Source of the DNA: a virus
Length of the DNA stretch: 45,402 nucleotides
Reading direction: 5' to 3' (one strand)
IMG/VR virus record: IMGVR_UViG_3300003323_000119
Location: 1 to 45,402 of that record
A program made the position numbers and the translations under genes. The number at the start of each line of letters is the position of its first letter. Within the stretch, counting starts at the first letter, position 1. Below, piece after piece: positions 3,210 through 41,001 of this stretch. The notes beneath the pieces are model-generated. The model did not search any database, was not told the origin of the DNA, and saw only the letters and a list, made by a program, of their open reading frames with translations.

Positions 3210-4072
3210 CAGTCTGTCTTGTCCTCGTAACCGTAAGAGTTAGGGACAAAAGAGACCTGCTCAAGAATGGTGGTGTCTTGTCCTTCGAGCTGCGCCTTAC
3301 AAAGAACCCAAAAAGCACAGTACTCGCAATTGTACTTGACCATCGTGCGTAGTGCGGCACGATCCACTTCTTCTCGGGACATACTCTTGTAGCGATTAAT
3401 TCGCTCAGCCGCAGCCGTGTGGTTATTCGCTACAGCAACAAGTTCAAGCTCAGTAGGAGTAATGTACTCCCTCTGAAACTTAACTGTCGCGTCTTCTCGA
3501 TGGCGCAGCTCATTTACCATGCCATACTCAACATTTTCTCCCGGGAACAACCTACGGAGACCGGTGACATAACCCGGAAGCTGACTGTTGATTTCAATTG
3601 CTACCTTGGGCCAGAAGTTATACAGAAACTTGTGATCCCAAGGAACAATGAAGCCATCAAGCTTGTTGCGCATGACAACGTCGGCTCGGCCAACAAAATT
3701 AATCTCAGGAACTTCGAGCAGTATTTCAACGCCGAGAATTTCCCACATATCAAGTTCGTCGTCGTAGAACTTGAAGTACTCAAGCAGAAGTGTACCCAGA
3801 GACGAATACATCTGGGACATATCTGGATCGTGCATGTGCTCGACGGAACGCTCAAGAAGCCTGTTATACGTTGCCTTTATGGCATCCTTCCGAGGAACAC
3901 CTTCCATAACGCTCCGATAGTAGAACTCCAGAGCCTTATGTCCGATGACACCTCGGGTAATAGCTTCGCCGATACTTACCGGCTCATAGTTGTAGGCAGG
4001 ATGATGTGCGTACTTCCATTGAGTCTCACAACTCAGAAGGCTCATCACCTGCGAATTAGATGCATTCGGCAC
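3209..4072 (-). CDS. Cas4-like PD-(D/E)XK exonuclease with predicted Fe-S cluster
   Basis: A 287-residue nuclease. From the GTG at 4072 the order is: C15 (LLSCETQ); H45 in GHKALEF; D131 in GRADVV; the catalytic D146-H147-K148 (PWDHKF); then C249, C252 and C258 near the C-terminus. One N-terminal and three C-terminal cysteines around a PD-(D/E)XK core are the hallmark of Cas4/AddB-type [4Fe-4S] exonucleases. The GTG follows GAGG by 10 nt and overlaps the upstream gene by 17 nt; in-frame ATGs at 4090, 4111 and 4144 are possible but overlap more. Known: the family resects DNA ends. Together with Sak4 and the SSB-like protein it forms a plausible recombination cassette. Confidence 0.82.
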   Translation of the reverse strand: MPNASNSQVMSLLSCETQWKYAHHPAYNYEPVSIGEAITRGVIGHKALEFYYRSVMEGVPRKDAIKATYNRLLERSVEHMHDPDMSQMYSSLGTLLLEYFKFYDDELDMWEILGVEILLEVPEINFVGRADVVMRNKLDGFIVPWDHKFLYNFWPKVAIEINSQLPGYVTGLRRLFPGENVEYGMVNELRHREDATVKFQREYITPTELELVAVANNHTAAAERINRYKSMSREEVDRAALRTMVKYNCEYCAFWVLCKAQLEGQDTTILEQVSFVPNSYGYEDKTD

Positions 4073-4862: not shown

Positions 4863-5411
4863 TTAATCCACCGCCTTCTTTAGCTTACCTTTTTGGAACC
4901 ATTCAAATTCGCTGGCAGCTAGCTCTTGGACTGTTGCTTCCACGGGGGAGTGGCTTGGATAGGTGGCTCCCCATACATAGTCTTTGTCATTAAGAGCATG
5001 CCACCTGTTGTGACAGTTGTGACAAATTCTGTGGACGTTACCACGTTCATTGTTGAGCGTGTTTTTGTCGGGGCCGTGGTGTCTTGCCTGTTGGAGGCCA
5101 TTGATGCAGCCCACAATAGGAGTTGCTCCGCCCCCGCAATGCTTCTTCTTCTGCCACTCACAAGCTGCCATTGCATCCAATGGATACAATTTAGCAGCGC
5201 GTTTGCGCCCTGTTGACTGCTGATCTTTTAGCTCCGCATCTAGTTTGTACGTCGTGATTTCGTCAAAAGAATCAAGAACATCATCGTCCCCGCCCCCATC
5301 AAAAAGGATGTCGCTGCCACAATCGCAATTACCATGATCTAGACACTCCCATTTTCTACCCAAATTGCAGGCAACACATTTAATCCGGCTGTTCGCCCCT
5401 ACGTTGCTCAT
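4863..5411 (-). CDS. HNH endonuclease
   Basis: A 182-residue protein. The C-terminal half carries the HNH pattern: C102, paired H111-H112 followed by GPDKNTLNNE, H127, then C130-x2-C133-H134 and W137-H138. Known: actinophages often encode this version, with the HHGPDKNTLNNE signature; the fold nicks or cuts DNA using one metal ion. The N-terminal 40 residues add a further Cys-rich region (CVAC, CDCG), perhaps a second zinc site. It lies within the replication/recombination operon and not beside the terminase, so it could act in recombination, host DNA breakdown or homing. It overlaps the upstream gene by 32 nt. Confidence 0.8.
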   Translation of the reverse strand: MSNVGANSRIKCVACNLGRKWECLDHGNCDCGSDILFDGGGDDDVLDSFDEITTYKLDAELKDQQSTGRKRAAKLYPLDAMAACEWQKKKHCGGGATPIVGCINGLQQARHHGPDKNTLNNERGNVHRICHNCHNRWHALNDKDYVWGATYPSHSPVEATVQELAASEFEWFQKGKLKKAVD

Positions 5412-5649: not shown

Positions 5650-5873
5650 TACTTGTACCTCCATTTTGCTTCATAACCTTCGGAACCTCTTTTACCTGGA
5701 GAGATTTGCCTAATCTTATTTTCTCTCCATAGAGAATGAAGACCTGCGGATACTGTCGTCTCTTTATATTCAAACTCAGGAAATCTTTTGCTTAGATACT
5801 CTATAAGACTCCTTACTGTTACTACCATTGTCGGGTTTTTAGCCATGTAAATAAGAACTTGCTCTTTAACCAT
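5649..5873 (-). CDS. Small winged-helix-like protein, 74 aa
   Basis: The pattern is helix (VKEQVLIYMAKN), a helix pair around VRSLIEYLSKRFP and TTVSAGLHSLWRENKI, then a basic hairpin with GKRGSEGYEAKW. This is the layout of a winged helix that reads DNA, with the second helix as the recognition helix. Coupled by TAATG at both ends. Probably DNA-binding; target unknown. It is one of several such small proteins in this arm. Confidence 0.65.
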   Translation of the reverse strand: MVKEQVLIYMAKNPTMVVTVRSLIEYLSKRFPEFEYKETTVSAGLHSLWRENKIRQISPGKRGSEGYEAKWRYK

Positions 5874-6061
5874 TACTCATTCAAATATTCAGTGAGAAGT
5901 GGATCATACTTCCTTTTTAGTGTACGCATAAGTGTTGCCACTTCTACGATATCCCAATCATGGAAAACCCATCCTAGTTCTTCTTCGACAACTTTAATTG
6001 CTGTCAGGTTTTCAGCACGGGCAACTACGCGACACTTTTCTTTTAGCTGTTCTACATCCAC
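5873..6061 (-). CDS. Small hypothetical protein, 62 aa
   Basis: A 62-residue, mostly helical protein. It is the first gene downstream of the intrinsic terminator at 6077-6116 in the leftward direction, with AGGGA-like sequence ahead of its ATG. No motif recognised. Whether its transcription depends on read-through of that terminator is open. Confidence 0.62.
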   Translation of the reverse strand: MDVEQLKEKCRVVARAENLTAIKVVEEELGWVFHDWDIVEVATLMRTLKRKYDPLLTEYLNE

Positions 6062-6076
6062 TTTATATCCCTAAAA

Positions 6077-6116
6077 CAAAAGAGCCCCCGCTGATTCGGA
6101 AGCGGTGGGCTCTTGG
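6077..6116 (-). terminator. Intrinsic terminator, leftward
   Basis: Arms aagagccc+ccgct and agcg+gggctctt pair over about 13 bp with one bulged base and an 8-nt loop. On the minus strand the stem is followed by TTTTGTTTT. It lies directly after the structured region at 6126-6409 and before the gene at 5873-6061. Confidence 0.8.
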
Positions 6117-6125
6117 GCTTGGCTA

Positions 6126-6409
6126 GGTATCCTCAGAAGTCAAATTCTTCTCTGTGCCAGAAGTCCCGAAACAGATCCGACTCTGTCTCAATTAACTTCT
6201 GAGGATACCCAGACCTTTTGTTCACCAAAGGTGAAATTTAGGGTAGGGAGAGAAACAATATTCACAAGCTCAGCGGCGACGATAAACCTGTGAATTATTC
6301 GGAGGGTTGGACACCGCCCCGGTCGGTCTCTCTCGCCTCTCTCCCTACACCTAGATAGTACCACGCTAACGGCCTAGTTATGCAAGCCGTTTCCTAGATC
6401 ACGTGGTAC
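6126..6409 (-). ncRNA. Candidate structured RNA: three consecutive nested inverted repeats
   Basis: This 380-nt gap (6062-6441) has no convincing gene. Reading leftward it holds three elements. Element 1 (6409-6358) has an 8-bp outer stem and a 6-bp inner stem around a 12-nt loop. Element 2 (6348-6243) has an 11-bp outer stem (gtagggagaga / tctctccctac) enclosing a 7-bp stem (attcaca / tgtgaat) and a GC-rich arm. Element 3 (6209-6126) has a perfect 15-bp outer stem closing a three-way junction with two 5-bp hairpins. An intrinsic terminator follows. The strand is inferred from the terminator and the neighbouring genes. A leftward non-coding RNA or control leader is likeliest; a replication origin with cruciforms is the alternative. 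No known RNA family was recognised. Confidence 0.55.
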
Positions 6410-6441
6410 ACATCACCCAGTCGAGCGCCATTGGTTGACGG

Positions 6442-6624
6442 CTATGTCCGATTTCGCGAGAGCTCAGAGGGCCGCCTCTTGTACTTTGTTTCCCAGCAAT
6501 TATTACATACAGTTCTGGGACGTGAAGGCTTATCAAAAATGCACCCACAAAGTCTACACTCAATGGGTTCACCAATTTCAGCCTCATACAAGTTATACTC
6601 AAATTCCTGATCACTTATGACCAC
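6442..6624 (-). CDS. Small zinc-ribbon protein, 60 aa
   Basis: Contains CRLCGC and CNNC about 15 residues apart, a compact zinc ribbon, followed by a basic tail. The GTG start at 6624 overlaps the preceding stop by 10 nt. It is the last gene before the structured region at 6126-6409. Function unknown; nucleic-acid or protein binding is plausible for such ribbons. Confidence 0.6.
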   Translation of the reverse strand: MVISDQEFEYNLYEAEIGEPIECRLCGCIFDKPSRPRTVCNNCWETKYKRRPSELSRNRT

Positions 6625-7369: not shown

Positions 7370-7543
7370 CTATCCCTTCTTCGGAGGAAAGAGAGTGATG
7401 TAATCTAGTTCTTGCTGAATACCATCACCCCACCATACACCTACACGAATGGAGCCATCATCAAGTCTTATGAGGTCTTGAACATTAAATTCTCGGATTC
7501 CCAATTCATCAAGAACCCATTGAGGAACTGTCCCGGAATGCAT
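7370..7543 (-). CDS. Small hypothetical protein, 57 aa
   Basis: A complete frame whose ATG overlaps the stop of the SNF2-type helicase gene (TGATG), a strong sign of coupled translation. It contains DDGSIRVGVWWGDGIQQEL, a beta-hairpin-like stretch. Function unknown; it may be a helicase partner, by position only. Confidence 0.62.
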   Translation of the reverse strand: MHSGTVPQWVLDELGIREFNVQDLIRLDDGSIRVGVWWGDGIQQELDYITLFPPKKG

Positions 7544-9687
7544 CAGTATTCCTGCCTGAGGGCCTTCTGGAGCATTTCAACCATGTCAACTTCGCGTTCG
7601 TAACCATCAACTACTTCACGCTTAATCTCAATAATCTCATCCATCACGTCCGAAATAGTATTCGGAACGTGAATCATATGAACCTGAGATCCCCATTTAG
7701 TATTAATTCGTGCGGTCCGTGCCATGGCCTGATCCTCACCCGCAGGGGTCCAGTCACGGTCAAGGAAAATAGTCTGTCGGCACAGGTCAATGTTAAGTCC
7801 AGTACCACCGCTCTTATAATTGGCAAGTACTACTTGGTACTTGTAGCCGTTAGGATTGTGCTCAGGGTGGTACGGATTATGAATATCCGGATTAGTCTCC
7901 GCAATCTTGCTATCTACGTCAGCCTTAATTGCAAGCTTCAAATCTTCTGGGGTGTCACCATCATATCGACAGACAGTGATCCCCATTTCAATGCACCTAC
8001 GTTCTACCTCCTTAAGCGCTTCCTTGAACTGAGAGAAGATAAGAACACGGTCATCTGCATCAATTGCATCAGTCGTAATTTGCATTGCCTTGTCGATAAT
8101 AATCGACTCATGTGCGTCTGCCTGCCACAGAAGTTGCCTTGTCTCAGGATCATGGAACTTAATACCAGCAGGCCAGCACAAAGCTTGACGCATCCGAAGA
8201 AGTCGAGTGATAGGCTTACTAAAAGCCTCAGCACTTTCATCGCCAGTCTTAATGTAGTAAGACCGAATCCAGTTCATTACCTGGCGCTGCTTGATGTACT
8301 GCCCATCCCATGAAAGTTCATGGTGGATAATCTTTTGCGGAGGCATTTCAACGCCAGCACTTTCAGGGCTGCGCGCAACAATTCGATGCCCGAGACGCTT
8401 CATAAGCCGCTCTTGTCCACCAGCAGCAAACTTCCAGACACCTACAGTCTTGTAGTCAATACCAGTATCCGTAAGTGCTGCGCGCTCCACGTACTGCAAG
8501 ACACAAAAACGGTTAAGGAATGCATTCAGACTCGGGAACTCATCTCGGTCTACCAAGTTAAGAAGAGTCCAAATATTCTGAGGCTTGGACTTAATTGACG
8601 TACCAGTCATCGGAAGGACATTCTTAACACTGCGTCGCTTGGCACCTTCCGGACCACGCTTATCAATGTCCATGTAAGTTTCCTGGCAAGCAGTGCACTG
8701 CAAGTAGGTAGTAACCTTACCCTTAGTGCGCTTTACTTCGGTATAGCTACCGCACTGCTCACAAATGTTCTCTGCGTACACAAGTGCATGAACACCCTTG
8801 AAAGCCTTTGTCTTCCCCTCTGCCATATTGTGAGCCTCATCACAAATGACGGTGTCAAAATTCAGCTTCCGCAGAGCCTCAATGAAATCGTCGTAATCCT
8901 TGCGCCAAGCTTCGTAGTTGATGAGAATCGTGAATTGCTCAAGAGCTTGAAAGCCCATGAACCACATATCACGCTCAAGCTTGTTTTTTCCACCCATAAT
9001 CATCGCCATGCGATGGGGTGCCCACGTTTCCATTTCTTGCTTGTAGTTAGAAAGTGTGTCTGCCGGGGCAATTACAAGTACTCTCTTAGACTTACGTAGA
9101 TCCATGAACATAATGGATTCCAGAGTCTTACCGAGACCCGGCTTATCACCACAGATAGCACGCTCGGCAATAGCAAGACGCACAGCACCATCAAGCTGAT
9201 GCTTACGTGCACGCTCACGCCAAGGTGCGTCAGGAGAAACCTCCGTAAGATAGAAATTGTACTCTTCCTTAGTCTTACGAATAATTTCTTGCTTGGAAAG
9301 AAAAGTAGTCTGCTGACGCTTGGCGTCCTCTAGTTCCTTCGAGACACGTTGCCACTCTTGGCGCGCAACATTGCGTCGAGAATCGCGCTCACGCTGGCGA
9401 ACTCGAATAGCGTCAAGTTGCTTTTGGAGTTCCGCCATAGCTTCCGCATCTTCTGCTTCTTCAGCCGCGAAACTTTCGCCGATCTTTTCAACATTCTTGA
9501 GCGCCTCTTCTTTCGAGGCGATGAGCTCTGCGACCTTGTCGAGATCAAGATTTTCTTCCTGTTCTGCAATGTGTTCTGCGATATATGCGTTAGCAAGATT
9601 CGTCGCAAGAACTATTGCCTTCTTTTCTTCGGGGTTCTCCTTTACAGGTTCTGGCTTAGGCGCTACAGCAAAGGGGTTCTCAATCAT
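7543..9687 (-). CDS. SNF2/SF2-type DEAH helicase with inserted zinc ribbon
   Basis: A 714-residue helicase. The ATG at 9687 has AAGGAG 6 nt upstream; an upstream in-frame ATG at 9702 lies before that site. Residues about 40-140 form a charged coiled coil. Helicase motifs in order: motif I GDKPGLGKT (180-188), motif II DEAH (283-286), a zinc ribbon with C309, C312, C331 and C334, motif III MTGTS (360-364), and in the C-terminal lobe SGGTGLN and QAMARTARI (motifs V and VI). Known: SNF2-like phage helicases translocate on duplex DNA and can act in replication, recombination or remodelling of protein-DNA complexes. The ribbon between motifs II and III and the N-terminal coil are additions to the core. 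Confidence 0.88.
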   Translation of the reverse strand: MIENPFAVAPKPEPVKENPEEKKAIVLATNLANAYIAEHIAEQEENLDLDKVAELIASKEEALKNVEKIGESFAAEEAEDAEAMAELQKQLDAIRVRQRERDSRRNVARQEWQRVSKELEDAKRQQTTFLSKQEIIRKTKEEYNFYLTEVSPDAPWRERARKHQLDGAVRLAIAERAICGDKPGLGKTLESIMFMDLRKSKRVLVIAPADTLSNYKQEMETWAPHRMAMIMGGKNKLERDMWFMGFQALEQFTILINYEAWRKDYDDFIEALRKLNFDTVICDEAHNMAEGKTKAFKGVHALVYAENICEQCGSYTEVKRTKGKVTTYLQCTACQETYMDIDKRGPEGAKRRSVKNVLPMTGTSIKSKPQNIWTLLNLVDRDEFPSLNAFLNRFCVLQYVERAALTDTGIDYKTVGVWKFAAGGQERLMKRLGHRIVARSPESAGVEMPPQKIIHHELSWDGQYIKQRQVMNWIRSYYIKTGDESAEAFSKPITRLLRMRQALCWPAGIKFHDPETRQLLWQADAHESIIIDKAMQITTDAIDADDRVLIFSQFKEALKEVERRCIEMGITVCRYDGDTPEDLKLAIKADVDSKIAETNPDIHNPYHPEHNPNGYKYQVVLANYKSGGTGLNIDLCRQTIFLDRDWTPAGEDQAMARTARINTKWGSQVHMIHVPNTISDVMDEIIEIKREVVDGYEREVDMVEMLQKALRQEY

Positions 9688-9719
9688 TGTTACTCCTTTC
9701 ATGTCTAAGTTTTTAGTGA

Positions 9720-11487: not shown

Positions 11488-11733
11488 TTAGTCACGATTT
11501 GAATCGTGTTCACTCTGCATCTCTTGAATCTTACTCTCCATCAGTGAAACAACATCCGAGAAGAGATTTGCTACCCCGTGCTGTGACAGATTAGTAGCTA
11601 CGTCAACAATACTGCGGTACTGCTGGATTCGCTCCGTCAAGGATAGATTCGGAAGATGTTCCAAACTATCGCAAACTTCTTCCACAAATTCCGAGTAAAT
11701 ATCGAGCGAGTGGCTGATCTGATTGTCCTTCAT
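11488..11733 (-). CDS. Helical hypothetical protein, 81 aa
   Basis: An 81-residue, all-helical, acidic protein with heptad-like spacing of hydrophobics (VEEVCDSLEHL, DVVSLMESKIQEM), probably oligomeric. AAAGGATC lies ahead of its ATG. It follows the structured gap at 11771-11904. Function unknown. Confidence 0.62.
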   Translation of the reverse strand: MKDNQISHSLDIYSEFVEEVCDSLEHLPNLSLTERIQQYRSIVDVATNLSQHGVANLFSDVVSLMESKIQEMQSEHDSNRD

Positions 11734-11770
11734 TAATCAAGATCCTTTCAATTAGTGCTGAGTCACAGCG

Positions 11771-11904
11771 ACATTCTACCAGTGAACTGGACTCCACAGA
11801 ATGCCCCCAAATCGGGGCGCTATGGGGTCTAGAACAGACGCAGCGTATCGACACGACCCGAACCCGGGTGCCTACGGGCAGTTAACCTAAAGTAGACACC
11901 CGGG
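11771..11904 (-). other. Structured intergenic segment with four inverted repeats
   Basis: The 185-nt gap 11734-11918 holds: cccgggtg / cacccggg (8 bp, 11863-11904) closing an inner ctac / gtag stem; gcccc / ggggc (11803-11818); and cattct / agaatg (11772-11803) enclosing ccag-tgaa-ctgg. On the minus strand one stretch resembles a tRNA D-arm (CAGTTCACTGGTAGAAT), but no anticodon or T-arm can be completed. Likely a folded leader or spacer. Confidence 0.45.
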
Positions 11905-11918
11905 AGGGACCTTTATTT

Positions 11919-12167
11919 TTACTTAGCGAAGAGTAGATAAAACCAGTAACGCGGCCATACCCAAAACCACATCATGCTGTAGCGATGGGCATACTCTCGC
12001 CTCTCATCTTCTGTCATGAATTCATCAGCAGCAAACGTAAGATGAAAGTCACGATCGTTCCAAGTAATCCAGAACGTAGCCCAATAGCCTACCAACCACA
12101 CCAGAGTAGTAGTAGCAAGGATAGTCAAGAACAACTTAATCGTCTCCACAATTACACTCCACTCCAT
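11919..12167 (-). CDS. Small membrane protein, 82 aa
   Basis: A hydrophobic segment at about residues 7-33 (IKLFLTILATTTLVWLVGYW) and a Trp/Phe-rich C-terminus (MMWFWVWPRYWFYLLF) suggest one or two membrane passes. A charged middle follows the first segment. It could be a holin-like or host-membrane factor, but it lies in the early arm, not beside a lysin. Overlaps the upstream gene by 32 nt. Confidence 0.65.
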   Translation of the reverse strand: MEWSVIVETIKLFLTILATTTLVWLVGYWATFWITWNDRDFHLTFAADEFMTEDERREYAHRYSMMWFWVWPRYWFYLLFAK

Positions 12168-14719: not shown

Positions 14720-14975
14720 TGTTACCCCTCACATTCAGGTCAATGATTTCGACGAGGTTCTTAACAAGGCGCAATTCGAATGAACCGCCAATTTCCGCCC
14801 GACCATATTCGAACATTCCGTCCCACACATAGTCGAGATTGTTTCCGACCACGTAGAAGGAAGTCTTTCGCAGGGTCTCAATGAAAGTTTCCTTCTTATC
14901 GCCTACGAAAGCGATGTTCTTTTTCTCACCACTACCAGTCTCCCTGTACGTGATGATAAGCATCAGGTCGTTCAT
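14703..14975 (-). CDS. Hypothetical protein, 90 aa
   Basis: Second gene of the leftward unit after the winged-helix regulator, coupled by an ATG overlapping that gene's end. Strands at the start (LMLIITYRETG, KNIAFVGDKKETF) and near the end (SFELRLVKNLVEIIDL). No family recognised. Confidence 0.63.
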   Translation of the reverse strand: MNDLMLIITYRETGSGEKKNIAFVGDKKETFIETLRKTSFYVVGNNLDYVWDGMFEYGRAEIGGSFELRLVKNLVEIIDLNVRGNNAEAL

Positions 14976-15586
14976 TACATCATCCTCTTTTCGAACTCAG
15001 CGACAATGTTATCGAGAGCACTGGGATCAGATTCAACTCCGAGCTTCTTAATCTCACACCGGAGATATTCCCTCAAAGCTGAGTCAAAGTAGTTCGGTGA
15101 CAACATGGTCTCTACGATTTTCGCTACAGCAACTAGCTCCCGGTGATAATCCTTGAGCCGCTGCTTAACTGTGTTGAGCTGTACATCATTGAGTGCGTAG
15201 CGAGAATCATCCTCAAGTGCAGTACTAAGGATGAGCCGAGCACACATGTAATTCAGGGCATTGACGAACTTCTCCTGCACCACTGTGAATTCGTGGGGCT
15301 CAGAACTCAACTTCTTAATGAGTTCCATGTATGTGAAATGCTTGTCACCATAAGGAAGCTTCAACAAATCCACTTCCATACGGCCACCTACCATCACATA
15401 GAAGTGACCTCTGTGCTGCTGAAATTGTGGGGACTTTCGAAGGAAGCCATCACTTTCGAGCTCAGCAATCTTTGCTGTCACAGTCTTTCGGTTGAGACCA
15501 GTAATCTCTGAGAGATCCTTTATGGTGTATGGCTTATCCTCTTTGTGGAAGACTGCCATCACCATTTGTTTGGTACTTGAGCGCAT
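14975..15586 (-). CDS. Winged-helix transcription regulator of the early arm
   Basis: A 203-residue protein. Residues about 8-65 form a winged helix: KQMVMAVFHKEDKP, YTIKDLSEITG, LNRKTVTAKIAELESDGF, then a wing with Gln/His-rich residues. The remaining 140 residues are helical and may form the dimer or effector part. It is the first gene after a leftward promoter whose region carries a cluster of CTACTTGYCC half-sites (15639-15715), so autoregulation or control of the early arm is likely. The ATG at 15586 has AAGTGAG about 8 nt upstream. Confidence 0.72.
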   Translation of the reverse strand: MRSSTKQMVMAVFHKEDKPYTIKDLSEITGLNRKTVTAKIAELESDGFLRKSPQFQQHRGHFYVMVGGRMEVDLLKLPYGDKHFTYMELIKKLSSEPHEFTVVQEKFVNALNYMCARLILSTALEDDSRYALNDVQLNTVKQRLKDYHRELVAVAKIVETMLSPNYFDSALREYLRCEIKKLGVESDPSALDNIVAEFEKRMM

Positions 15587-15628
15587 AGGACGTCTCACTT
15601 TAGGTGGTTCGTGGAAACTAATTGGAAT

Positions 15629-15656
15629 TTTGTAGATGCTACTTGCCCATGGACAA
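15629..15656 (-). promoter_or_regulatory. Candidate leftward promoter of the early operon
   Basis: On the minus strand, TTGTCC (15656-15651), a 16-nt spacer and TACAAA (15634-15629) give a promoter-like layout with a predicted start near 15622, about 36 nt before the regulator ATG. The -35 part lies inside a 22-bp operator-like palindrome. Predicted by eye only. Confidence 0.45.
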
Positions 15657-15715
15657 GTAGAGGTGGGCTACTTGCTACTTGCCCAAACCCGCAGGTCAGA
15701 GGGCTGGACAAGTAG
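15639..15715. promoter_or_regulatory. Operator cluster: CTACTTGYCC half-sites
   Basis: Five copies of CTACTTG/CAAGTAG lie within 77 bp. ctacttgccc (15639-15648) and ggacaagtag (15651-15660) form a near-perfect 22-bp palindrome. ctacttg (15668), ctacttgccc (15675-15684) and ggacaagtag (15706-15715) form a second, wider pair. The location just upstream of the winged-helix gene suggests binding of that protein. A lone further copy lies at 15981-15987. Confidence 0.65.
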
Positions 15716-15723
15716 GAATCCCT

Positions 15724-15769
15724 CGCCCCCCTTTAAGTGGCTACGAAGTAGTTACTTATTAAGGGGGCG
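15724..15769. other. GC-rich hairpin upstream of the operators
   Basis: cgcccccctttaa and ttaagggggcg pair over about 10 bp around a loop that itself holds ctac / gtag. The rest of the gap (15773-15934) has no gene that I can support. Confidence 0.4.
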
Positions 15770-15934
15770 GCGATCAGAATATAAAAGACATTATTGCGGT
15801 GCGAACACCACAATTAGTGCAAATGCCACAAACTCCACAAGTTGCTGTAGCAAATACACATGGCCCGCCCTAAATTCCATGCGACTTCACTTCTCACTAA
15901 ATGCGAAGTGCTCTCACTTAAAGGGTGCTGAAAC

Positions 15935-15971
15935 GCAAAAAGCCCCACACTCAATTAAGAGTGTGGGGCTT
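15935..15971 (-). terminator. Intrinsic terminator of the isolated early gene
   Basis: aagccccacactc / gagtgtggggctt is a perfect 13-bp stem with a 6-nt loop, followed on the minus strand by TTTTTGCG. It lies 19 nt after the stop at 15990. Confidence 0.88.
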
Positions 15972-15989
15972 AATTGCTCGCTACTTGTT

Positions 15990-17129
15990 TCAGCTACCGT
16001 TCTTCACACCACGCAGGTGGAAAGTAACAGTCTTCGCAGGCTTAATCACCTTGTCACCCTGCTTCTCTTCGGGAAGCTCCACCGTCAGCTCGAAAGTGTA
16101 AGAGCCAGGCTTAACCTTGTCTCCGTCATTGTAACCGAGCGAAGAACCGGTCAGCTTGTTGTACCCGTCGTAAAAAGCCTTAGTGACATCGGTGGAAGCA
16201 ATGGCACCACGACCGTGAAGCTGAGAAGTAAGTTCCTTCGCAACCATTCCAGCGTTGGAAGTAACCTTCCCATCCTTATCGGTCTTAGAGATGAACTTCT
16301 CTTCGTTCGTCTCAGGGTTAATCACGTGGAACTCATCGAGACGAACAGTCGCACGCTTTTCGCCACTGTCAGAGGGGGAACTTCCACCCGTGCGAACACC
16401 CTTAAGGTTCTCCACCACCGGAAGAAGATCGGTGAGGTAACCAGGCTTCCACGTCGGGTCAATACCCATGGTGACCATCTGAGACTCAAAGTCCGCAAGA
16501 GTCTTCTTACGGGCAGAGATAACAGAAGTGGAAGCACTGACAAGAGCGCGAGCCGCTTCGACCTGCTCCGGCGTACGAATCTCGTCCGCCATAAGTTCCT
16601 GAGCCTTCTCGTTGGCCTGAGCAGTAAGCTTCTCGTACTCAGCCATGAGCTTTTCGCGCTGCTCATTGAGGTTGTTGAGAACCTCATTGTCCCACGGGTT
16701 GTTATCCCGCTTCTCCGAAAGAAGCTCAAGGAACTTCTTAGGATCAGCAGACTTAACAATGTTCACGTTGGCGTTGTGACCCTCAATGTCCTTGAGAGTC
16801 TGAGTAATCATGAGCTGGAAAGGCGGAGCGAGCTCCTGAAAACGCGCGGCCTTCTCGTCCGTCTGGAGAGGAATGTCAGCGGTGGAAAGTCCGTTTGCAC
16901 GGGCAATGTTCTTCTCTTCGAGAGAAAGAGCCGCAAACTTCTCTTCGGTGAGAATGTCTTCCGTCTCCTCCCCCTTTTCCTCGGTAGAGTCGGAATTGTT
17001 GATGGGGGTTTCCGTCTCCTCCGTCTCGTTAACGTCAGCGGCGGGGGTTTCGGTGGTCTCGACAGTCATTTCGGTTTCCTCCGGGGTGTCGGTGCTCTGG
17101 TTGGCGTTGTTGTTACGGTTGCGCGCCAT
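15990..17129 (-). CDS. Isolated early protein: acidic N-terminus, coiled-coil middle, 379 aa
   Basis: ATG at 17129 with GGAGG 7 nt upstream. Residues 1-85 are acidic and Thr/Glu-rich (repeated ETEE and TETP), probably disordered. Residues about 150-245 form a charged coiled coil (LNEQREKLMAEYEKLTAQANEKAQEL). The last 120 residues alternate strands and turns and end in a basic region, consistent with a folded domain. Codons are richer in G/C at the third position than in the neighbours, which may mark high expression. It stands alone, with a long leader, its own promoter candidate at 17458-17486 and a strong terminator. I recognise no family; an abundant early host-takeover or nucleoid-type protein is inference. 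Confidence 0.72.
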   Translation of the reverse strand: MARNRNNNANQSTDTPEETEMTVETTETPAADVNETEETETPINNSDSTEEKGEETEDILTEEKFAALSLEEKNIARANGLSTADIPLQTDEKAARFQELAPPFQLMITQTLKDIEGHNANVNIVKSADPKKFLELLSEKRDNNPWDNEVLNNLNEQREKLMAEYEKLTAQANEKAQELMADEIRTPEQVEAARALVSASTSVISARKKTLADFESQMVTMGIDPTWKPGYLTDLLPVVENLKGVRTGGSSPSDSGEKRATVRLDEFHVINPETNEEKFISKTDKDGKVTSNAGMVAKELTSQLHGRGAIASTDVTKAFYDGYNKLTGSSLGYNDGDKVKPGSYTFELTVELPEEKQGDKVIKPAKTVTFHLRGVKNGS

Positions 17130-17451
17130 TTCAAGCCTCCGGGTGCTAGGTGTCCAACTACCTACAATGATAGCGCATTGCAGGGTCATACGGCGGCATT
17201 TCGCGTAAGCGATTTCGCCTGTACCCCGAACGGGTTATGAGCCCGATCGGGGCTGTAGCGATCATATTTAATTCCGGATTCGCTACGTCGGAATAAAGTT
17301 CTACGGCACTAATTAGTCTCGGCCCTGGCAAAACCCGGGCGCTGATCACAATTAATTCGCGAGCCACTATTGATTTGAGAAGTAACGTGCGCTGCCTTTT
17401 TCCCTCGCTGTTTAGGGATCATAGGGGGCCAGGCGCGCTGTGTTTTGTTGT
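17130..17451 (-). other. Long 5' leader with several hairpins
   Basis: This roughly 320-nt stretch before the isolated early gene has no convincing gene. It contains: ccccga / tcgggg enclosing cggg / cccg (17224-17252), directly followed by a ctgtagcg word; attccg / cggaat (17271-17294); and gccctgg / cccgggc with one mismatch (17322-17340). If the promoter at 17458-17486 is real, all of this is transcribed untranslated leader. Confidence 0.45.
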
Positions 17452-40951: not shown

Positions 40952-40954
40952 AAC

Positions 40955-40992
40955 AAAAATCCCCGTGAACTGAAAGGTTCACGGGGATTTTT
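40955..40992. terminator. Bidirectional terminator between converging arms
   Basis: aaaaatccccgtgaac / gttcacggggattttt is a perfect 16-bp stem with a 6-nt loop. Runs of T follow on both strands. It sits 3 nt after the whiB stop and 9 nt from the stop of the converging leftward gene. Confidence 0.92.
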
Positions 40993-41001
40993 GCTGGCTC
41001 G

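Follow-up and report, generated by a model that had tools for sequence, protein, structure and literature searches.

Does the gene-free stretch at about positions 6072–6441 of this viral genome encode an RNA of its own, and what would such an RNA do? The source is an IMG/VR virus record of 45.4 kb, and the whole stretch of DNA analysed (45,402 nucleotides) is referred to here as the window. Structural genes in it run rightward, and early and replication genes leftward. Its capsid protein is 42–45% identical to those of Cellulosimicrobium phage DS1, Microbacterium phage Shocker and Arthrobacter phage Jasmine, making an actinobacterial host likely; the hosts are probably soil actinobacteria. On the minus strand, the stretch is preceded by a small gene encoding 60 amino acids (6442–6624) that ends at 6442 and has no match in a PHROG search, and is followed by a gene encoding 62 amino acids (5873–6061) with a GTG start at 6061. 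Farther out, the element is flanked by two conserved minus-strand neighbours, an SNF2-like DNA helicase upstream (7543–9702; PHROG 62, E 5e-63) and an HNH endonuclease downstream (4863–5411; PHROG 144, E 0.0027; 51–59% identity to relatives). The HNH gene is followed by those for an exonuclease and then a Sak4-like annealing protein. An earlier note on this DNA had proposed that the stretch holds a leftward-transcribed structured RNA of no known class, ending in an intrinsic terminator.

A highly structured element with a built-in terminator

The minus strand between 6412 and 6072 folds to −163 kcal/mol, versus −105 ± 5.4 kcal/mol in dinucleotide shuffles (z −10.65; none of 100 shuffles was as good). 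Four hairpin elements occupy the space between the end of the upstream gene and the start of the downstream one. Element 1 (6358–6409) is a branched hairpin with an outer stem of 9 bp (z −3.99), formed by an inverted repeat around the promoter-like site discussed below. Element 2 (6243–6348), the 5' domain, is a branched hairpin GTAGGGAGAGAG...CTCTCTCCCTAC with an outer stem of 16 bp (z −6.19) and has counterpart hairpins in four of the related phages (L134, L135, L138 and L139). Element 3 (6121–6215), here called P1, is a branched domain in which GGTCT and AGCC enclose a long stem and a three-way junction; its outer stem exceeds 20 bp (z −7.07). Element 4 (6080–6114) is the intrinsic terminator hairpin AAGAGCCC...GGGGGCTCTT (z −3.88) with the tail TTTTGTTTT and a U-tract at 6073–6079, which the covariance model R2 (see below) aligns to the terminators of the relatives. 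Thus, the structured RNA with a terminal intrinsic terminator is borne out, and so are the three branched structures seen in the earlier note, with two amendments: the outer stems are longer than the 8, 11 and 15 bp given there, and the first structure lies over the promoter. Since element 1 overlaps the promoter in the alignment with relatives, it is probably outside the RNA, and its inverted repeat is possibly a DNA operator. GTACC/GGTAC inverted repeats overlap the putative −10 both here and in the relative L129 (~3275–3300), and are a possible operator. When the promoter part is left out, z is −8.1. From the promoter and terminator positions we infer an RNA proper of elements 2–4, that is, two domains and a terminator, starting near 6348 and about 270 nt long (6076–6348).

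Rfam 15 returned no family at the gathering threshold, in agreement with the earlier assessment, and relaxed thresholds yielded chance-level miRNA matches only; across the window and the tested relatives, no Rfam family was found apart from tRNAs. The element is also absent from the phage ncRNA literature that we found (PMC5712189, PMC10986025), which covers the field in part. We regard it as a new family belonging to a known kind, that of structured phage leader or small RNAs.

The same genomic slot in related phages

Sequence similarity was of little help in finding relatives. DNA comparison with a phage collection gave no match to the window, and when the first relatives were searched for DNA resembling the element, no real match appeared, so the search moved to synteny and folding. 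Capsid and HNH queries yielded relatives; scans of viral contigs with the window helicase alone, or with the plus-strand ORF 15636–17240, recovered none, nearly all matches in short-pattern scans of viral contigs were due to chance, and a descriptor search added no members to those already known. The folding scan revealed strongly structured intergenic stretches in the slot between the SNF2-like helicase and the HNH nuclease, the same as in the window. Altogether, 14 further RNAs were found there, one per phage, in IMG/VR relatives and in one phage contig from a Streptomyces assembly, with fold z values from −6.5 to −11.9; RNA length across the family is 220–350 nt. The Streptomyces contig (46.4 kb, from the assembly of Streptomyces griseosporeus JCM 4766) belongs to a phage of the same lineage carrying the same kind of RNA, and is the only HNH relative that was found in genome assemblies. 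The helicase and the HNH nuclease are conserved across the set, but the first downstream genes are not; gene 5873–6061 of the window is not homologous to those of the relatives.

Covariation and covariance models

The relatives fall into two groups, group 1 (L129, L130, L134, L135, L138 and L139) and group 2 (L133, L136, L137, L140, L141, L148 and L209, with L132 as its outlier). In group 1, 19 of the 28 tested pairs have changed on both sides and 92.1% of cells pair; in P1 and P1b of group 2, the figures are 11 of 22 and 94.8%. None of 500 shuffles reached the score in either group, and the signal was lost in both when partners were slid by 1–3 columns. RNAalifold counted pairs changed on both sides as 22/31 in group 1 and 25/56 in group 2. 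The subgroups behind these numbers comprise 6–8 sequences each, with a few rows misplaced by MAFFT. The earlier note had named homologues with co-varying stems as a check on its proposal, and such homologues exist. This is a real RNA family, whose shape is kept by matching paired mutations in relatives.

Covariance models were built for group 2 (R1) and for group 1 without the window (R2). R2 matches the window at 6218–6073 on the minus strand (38.9 bits, E 7.4e-9), the only significant match in 45 kb, with the next at E 1.4. The best R1 match, by contrast, scores 5.8 bits (E 0.21 in 801 bases), which does not place the window in group 2. R1 recovers the outlier L132, unseen in training, with E 2.6e-9. 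Run on 396 genomes from the phylum to which the Streptomyces host belongs, it returns only the phage contig already described and a single marginal match (E 0.002). Neither model detects the other's group. The R2 match, together with the position between helicase and HNH gene on the same strand, makes the window a member of group 1. All six group 1 relatives have GATAACC and paired NNGG/CCNN motifs inside P1. Neither motif was seen in the window, where the inner region is shorter, and we therefore call it a divergent member. Conserved unpaired motifs are GAUAACC in group 1 and, in group 2, CAAG opposite GACUC, with GGCCAC. Common descent of the two groups is suggested by the slot that they share and by a CAAG/ACUC loop facing a long P1.

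A promoter-like site and the transcribed strand

Alignment with relatives points to a putative −10 TACTAT at 6355–6360 on the minus strand, preceded by an extended −10 TGG (6361–6363), and a putative weak −35 TTGCAT lies at 6380–6385 across a 19-nt spacer. Relatives have TTGACA, TTTACA or TTTGC at the −35 position. An aligned TAnnnT is found ahead of the 5' hairpin in 16/16 loci compared; it reads TATACT in all seven aligned copies of group 2, and TACCCT, TACACT or TATCCT in group 1. The summed promoter score is 7.5 versus 4.1 ± 0.7 in shuffles (0/300 as high), although the scored segments had been centred on the motif beforehand, a choice that biases the comparison in its favour. With its 19-nt spacer the putative promoter of the window is weak by consensus, and its −10 and −35 were missed by a simple sigma-70 scan. 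Nevertheless, positional conservation of the promoter-like site across relatives supports an independent RNA, one of the possibilities raised in the earlier note. The whole module may also be transcribed by readthrough from an upstream early promoter.

Strand assignment comes from the helices themselves. The tested helices contain 39 G-U cells but only 5 A-C cells (22:3, 9:1 and 8:1 individually), indicating an RNA of the leftward, early-gene strand. The terminator is on this strand as well, and leftward transcription, as initially proposed, is upheld.

Proposed function and alternative explanations

Structure, covariation, strand, terminator sequence and constant position are direct observations on this module. 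The reading that we favour, with moderate confidence, is a self-terminating leader or small RNA, that is, a promoter–RNA–terminator module in the leftward early operon, analogous to lambda pR'-6S-tR' or to Pleft of L5/D29. Host RNA polymerase would initiate near 6348 and produce an RNA of about 270 nt, which would fold into the 5' hairpin and the long-stemmed branched domain P1. Most transcription would end around 6076, where the terminator lies, releasing a compact and probably stable ncRNA, and a fraction reading through, constitutively or under regulation, would feed the small genes and those for the HNH nuclease, the exonuclease and the annealing protein. Transcription start, termination efficiency, abundance and use of readthrough are in this scheme deduced from sequence. 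The terminator is separated from the next start codon by only ~4–35 nt in all 15 phages, and a ribosome-binding-like sequence follows the U-tract directly in several of them (AGGGA, between U-tract and start, in the window). Because this leaves little room for another promoter, the downstream genes probably need readthrough, either from the module or from an upstream promoter. With the next gene lying so close behind the terminator in all relatives, gating or attenuation is plausible. In group 2, the U-tract directly follows the base of P1, so that P1 closure and termination are probably one event. A search for an alternative antiterminator fold found none, and regulated attenuation is therefore unproven.

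The RNA could instead act in trans, its conserved internal loop and hairpin loops binding some protein or RNA of the host or the phage (such as RNA polymerase, the ribosome or a defence protein), with readthrough being incidental. Several features are in line with this: the structure is more elaborate than a terminator requires, each group has conserved unpaired motifs, each phage has a single copy, and the RNA stays while the identity of the adjacent gene turns over. The abundant and toxic ncRNAs of L5 and D29 provide a precedent (PMC5712189). On the other hand, the element always occupies one slot of the operon, with a gene start right after it, and the clearest loop motifs are missing from the window copy; we consider this explanation rather unlikely. 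A bolder reading, also rather unlikely, would be a new family of trans-acting early RNAs, one per genome in a lineage of actinobacterial phages, in which the long-stemmed domain with its conserved loops would capture a host factor during takeover and also set readthrough into the replication genes.

Two further explanations assign the element to processive antitermination or to DNA. In the former, the nascent RNA would bind RNA polymerase and let it pass its own and later terminators, so that the distal replication genes are expressed, as in put of phage HK022, where two stem-loops act directly on RNA polymerase (PMC9378689). The leader-like position, with a terminator and genes downstream, and the two-domain RNA ahead of that terminator would suit such a role. 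However, put measures ~70 nt, against 220–350 nt and long perfect stems here, and the tight coupling of P1 to the terminator suggests stopping rather than passing, so we regard put-like action as improbable. According to the latter, the inverted repeats would be a replication origin or a protein-binding site that only mimics RNA structure. Long inverted repeats do lie near replication genes, and a further one spans the promoter, but the G-U excess is unexpected from DNA symmetry and the terminator has its U-tract on one strand. GC skew tracks the direction of the genes and shows no turn near the element at 6 kb, and a replication origin at the element, to which the earlier note would have redirected its claim, was rejected on this ground. 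A DNA-level explanation is thus very improbable. The self-terminating leader remains our preferred reading. The RNA family now has a defined structure backed by covariation, a constant place in the genome and two calibrated models, and the Streptomyces assembly offers a candidate source for it. Mutating its stems and loops would give a direct test of what early phage ncRNAs do.

Other structured stretches in the window and in related phages

The window has a second structured gene-free stretch on the minus strand (11733–11925, z −5.1), between ORFs 11919–12167 and 11488–11733. Also on the minus strand, 15600–15980 is very structured (z −9.05 for 15600–16100); it follows a terminator at ~15970–15935, precedes ORF 14975–15598 and contains CTACTTG...CAAGTAG hairpins, and may be an early promoter region. 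Two long ORFs overlap there on opposite strands, 15636–17240 (plus) and 15990–17189 (minus). The plus-strand ORF may be spurious, since it has no PHROG match and the terminator at ~15970 fits the minus-strand ORF. At 40954–40993, where the rightward and leftward operons converge, a perfect inverted repeat of 17 bp with T-tracts is probably a bidirectional terminator.

In four phages (L159, L162, L165 and L177), the same slot immediately upstream of HNH is taken by another kind of short RNA, which has a promoter-like site, then the invariant GGTGAAGC[AG]GCG...AGTAGCC and finally a strong terminator that borders the HNH gene; it is possibly another leader family. Phage DS1 has, at ~11880–12050, a promoter-like site (TTGACA-17-CATACT), a structured RNA and a terminator directly before its HNH gene, in the same layout as the window element and with a different sequence. 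In L142, L143 and L145, a region of long-inverted-repeat hairpins (GCTACAGGG-type in L142 and L145) lies upstream of HNH, directly before a gene start. In phage Casserole, a very strong inverted repeat lies in the gap between Lsr2 and gp54 (1531–1680; −85.6 kcal/mol per 150 nt).

Comparison with known systems

The late leader pR'-6S-tR' of phage lambda consists of a promoter, a short terminated leader RNA and a terminator directly before the operon, under the control of Q. The window element shares this layout, but the lambda leader serves a late operon, has a simple RNA and depends on a protein antiterminator. Rfam includes large structured ncRNAs of phages and bacteria, such as GOLLD, ROOL and HEARO, which occur in phages or close to HNH genes, as does the RNA described here; it matches no Rfam family.

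HK022 put is likewise a phage leader RNA made of hairpins and transcribed with early genes. Its two stem-loops, ~70 nt in all, have proven RNA polymerase binding and antiterminate by contacting the zinc-binding domain of the beta' subunit (PMC9378689), whereas the window RNA, of ~270 nt and with long stems, does not have this size and shape.

Very abundant ncRNAs of unknown function recur in actinophage transcriptomes (PMC5712189, PMC10986025). At Pleft of L5 and D29, such an RNA precedes early genes that are expressed at levels more than 90% lower (PMC5712189). R1 and R2 gave no match on the right arm of D29 (34000–49127), for which the models may be too narrow. The Pleft RNA differs from that of the window in its length (~500 nt), its position at the genome end and the lack of an evident canonical terminator or a described conserved fold. 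Yet the arrangement is similar, both lying in the early leftward region of an actinophage, with a promoter followed by an ncRNA and early genes downstream (PMC5712189).
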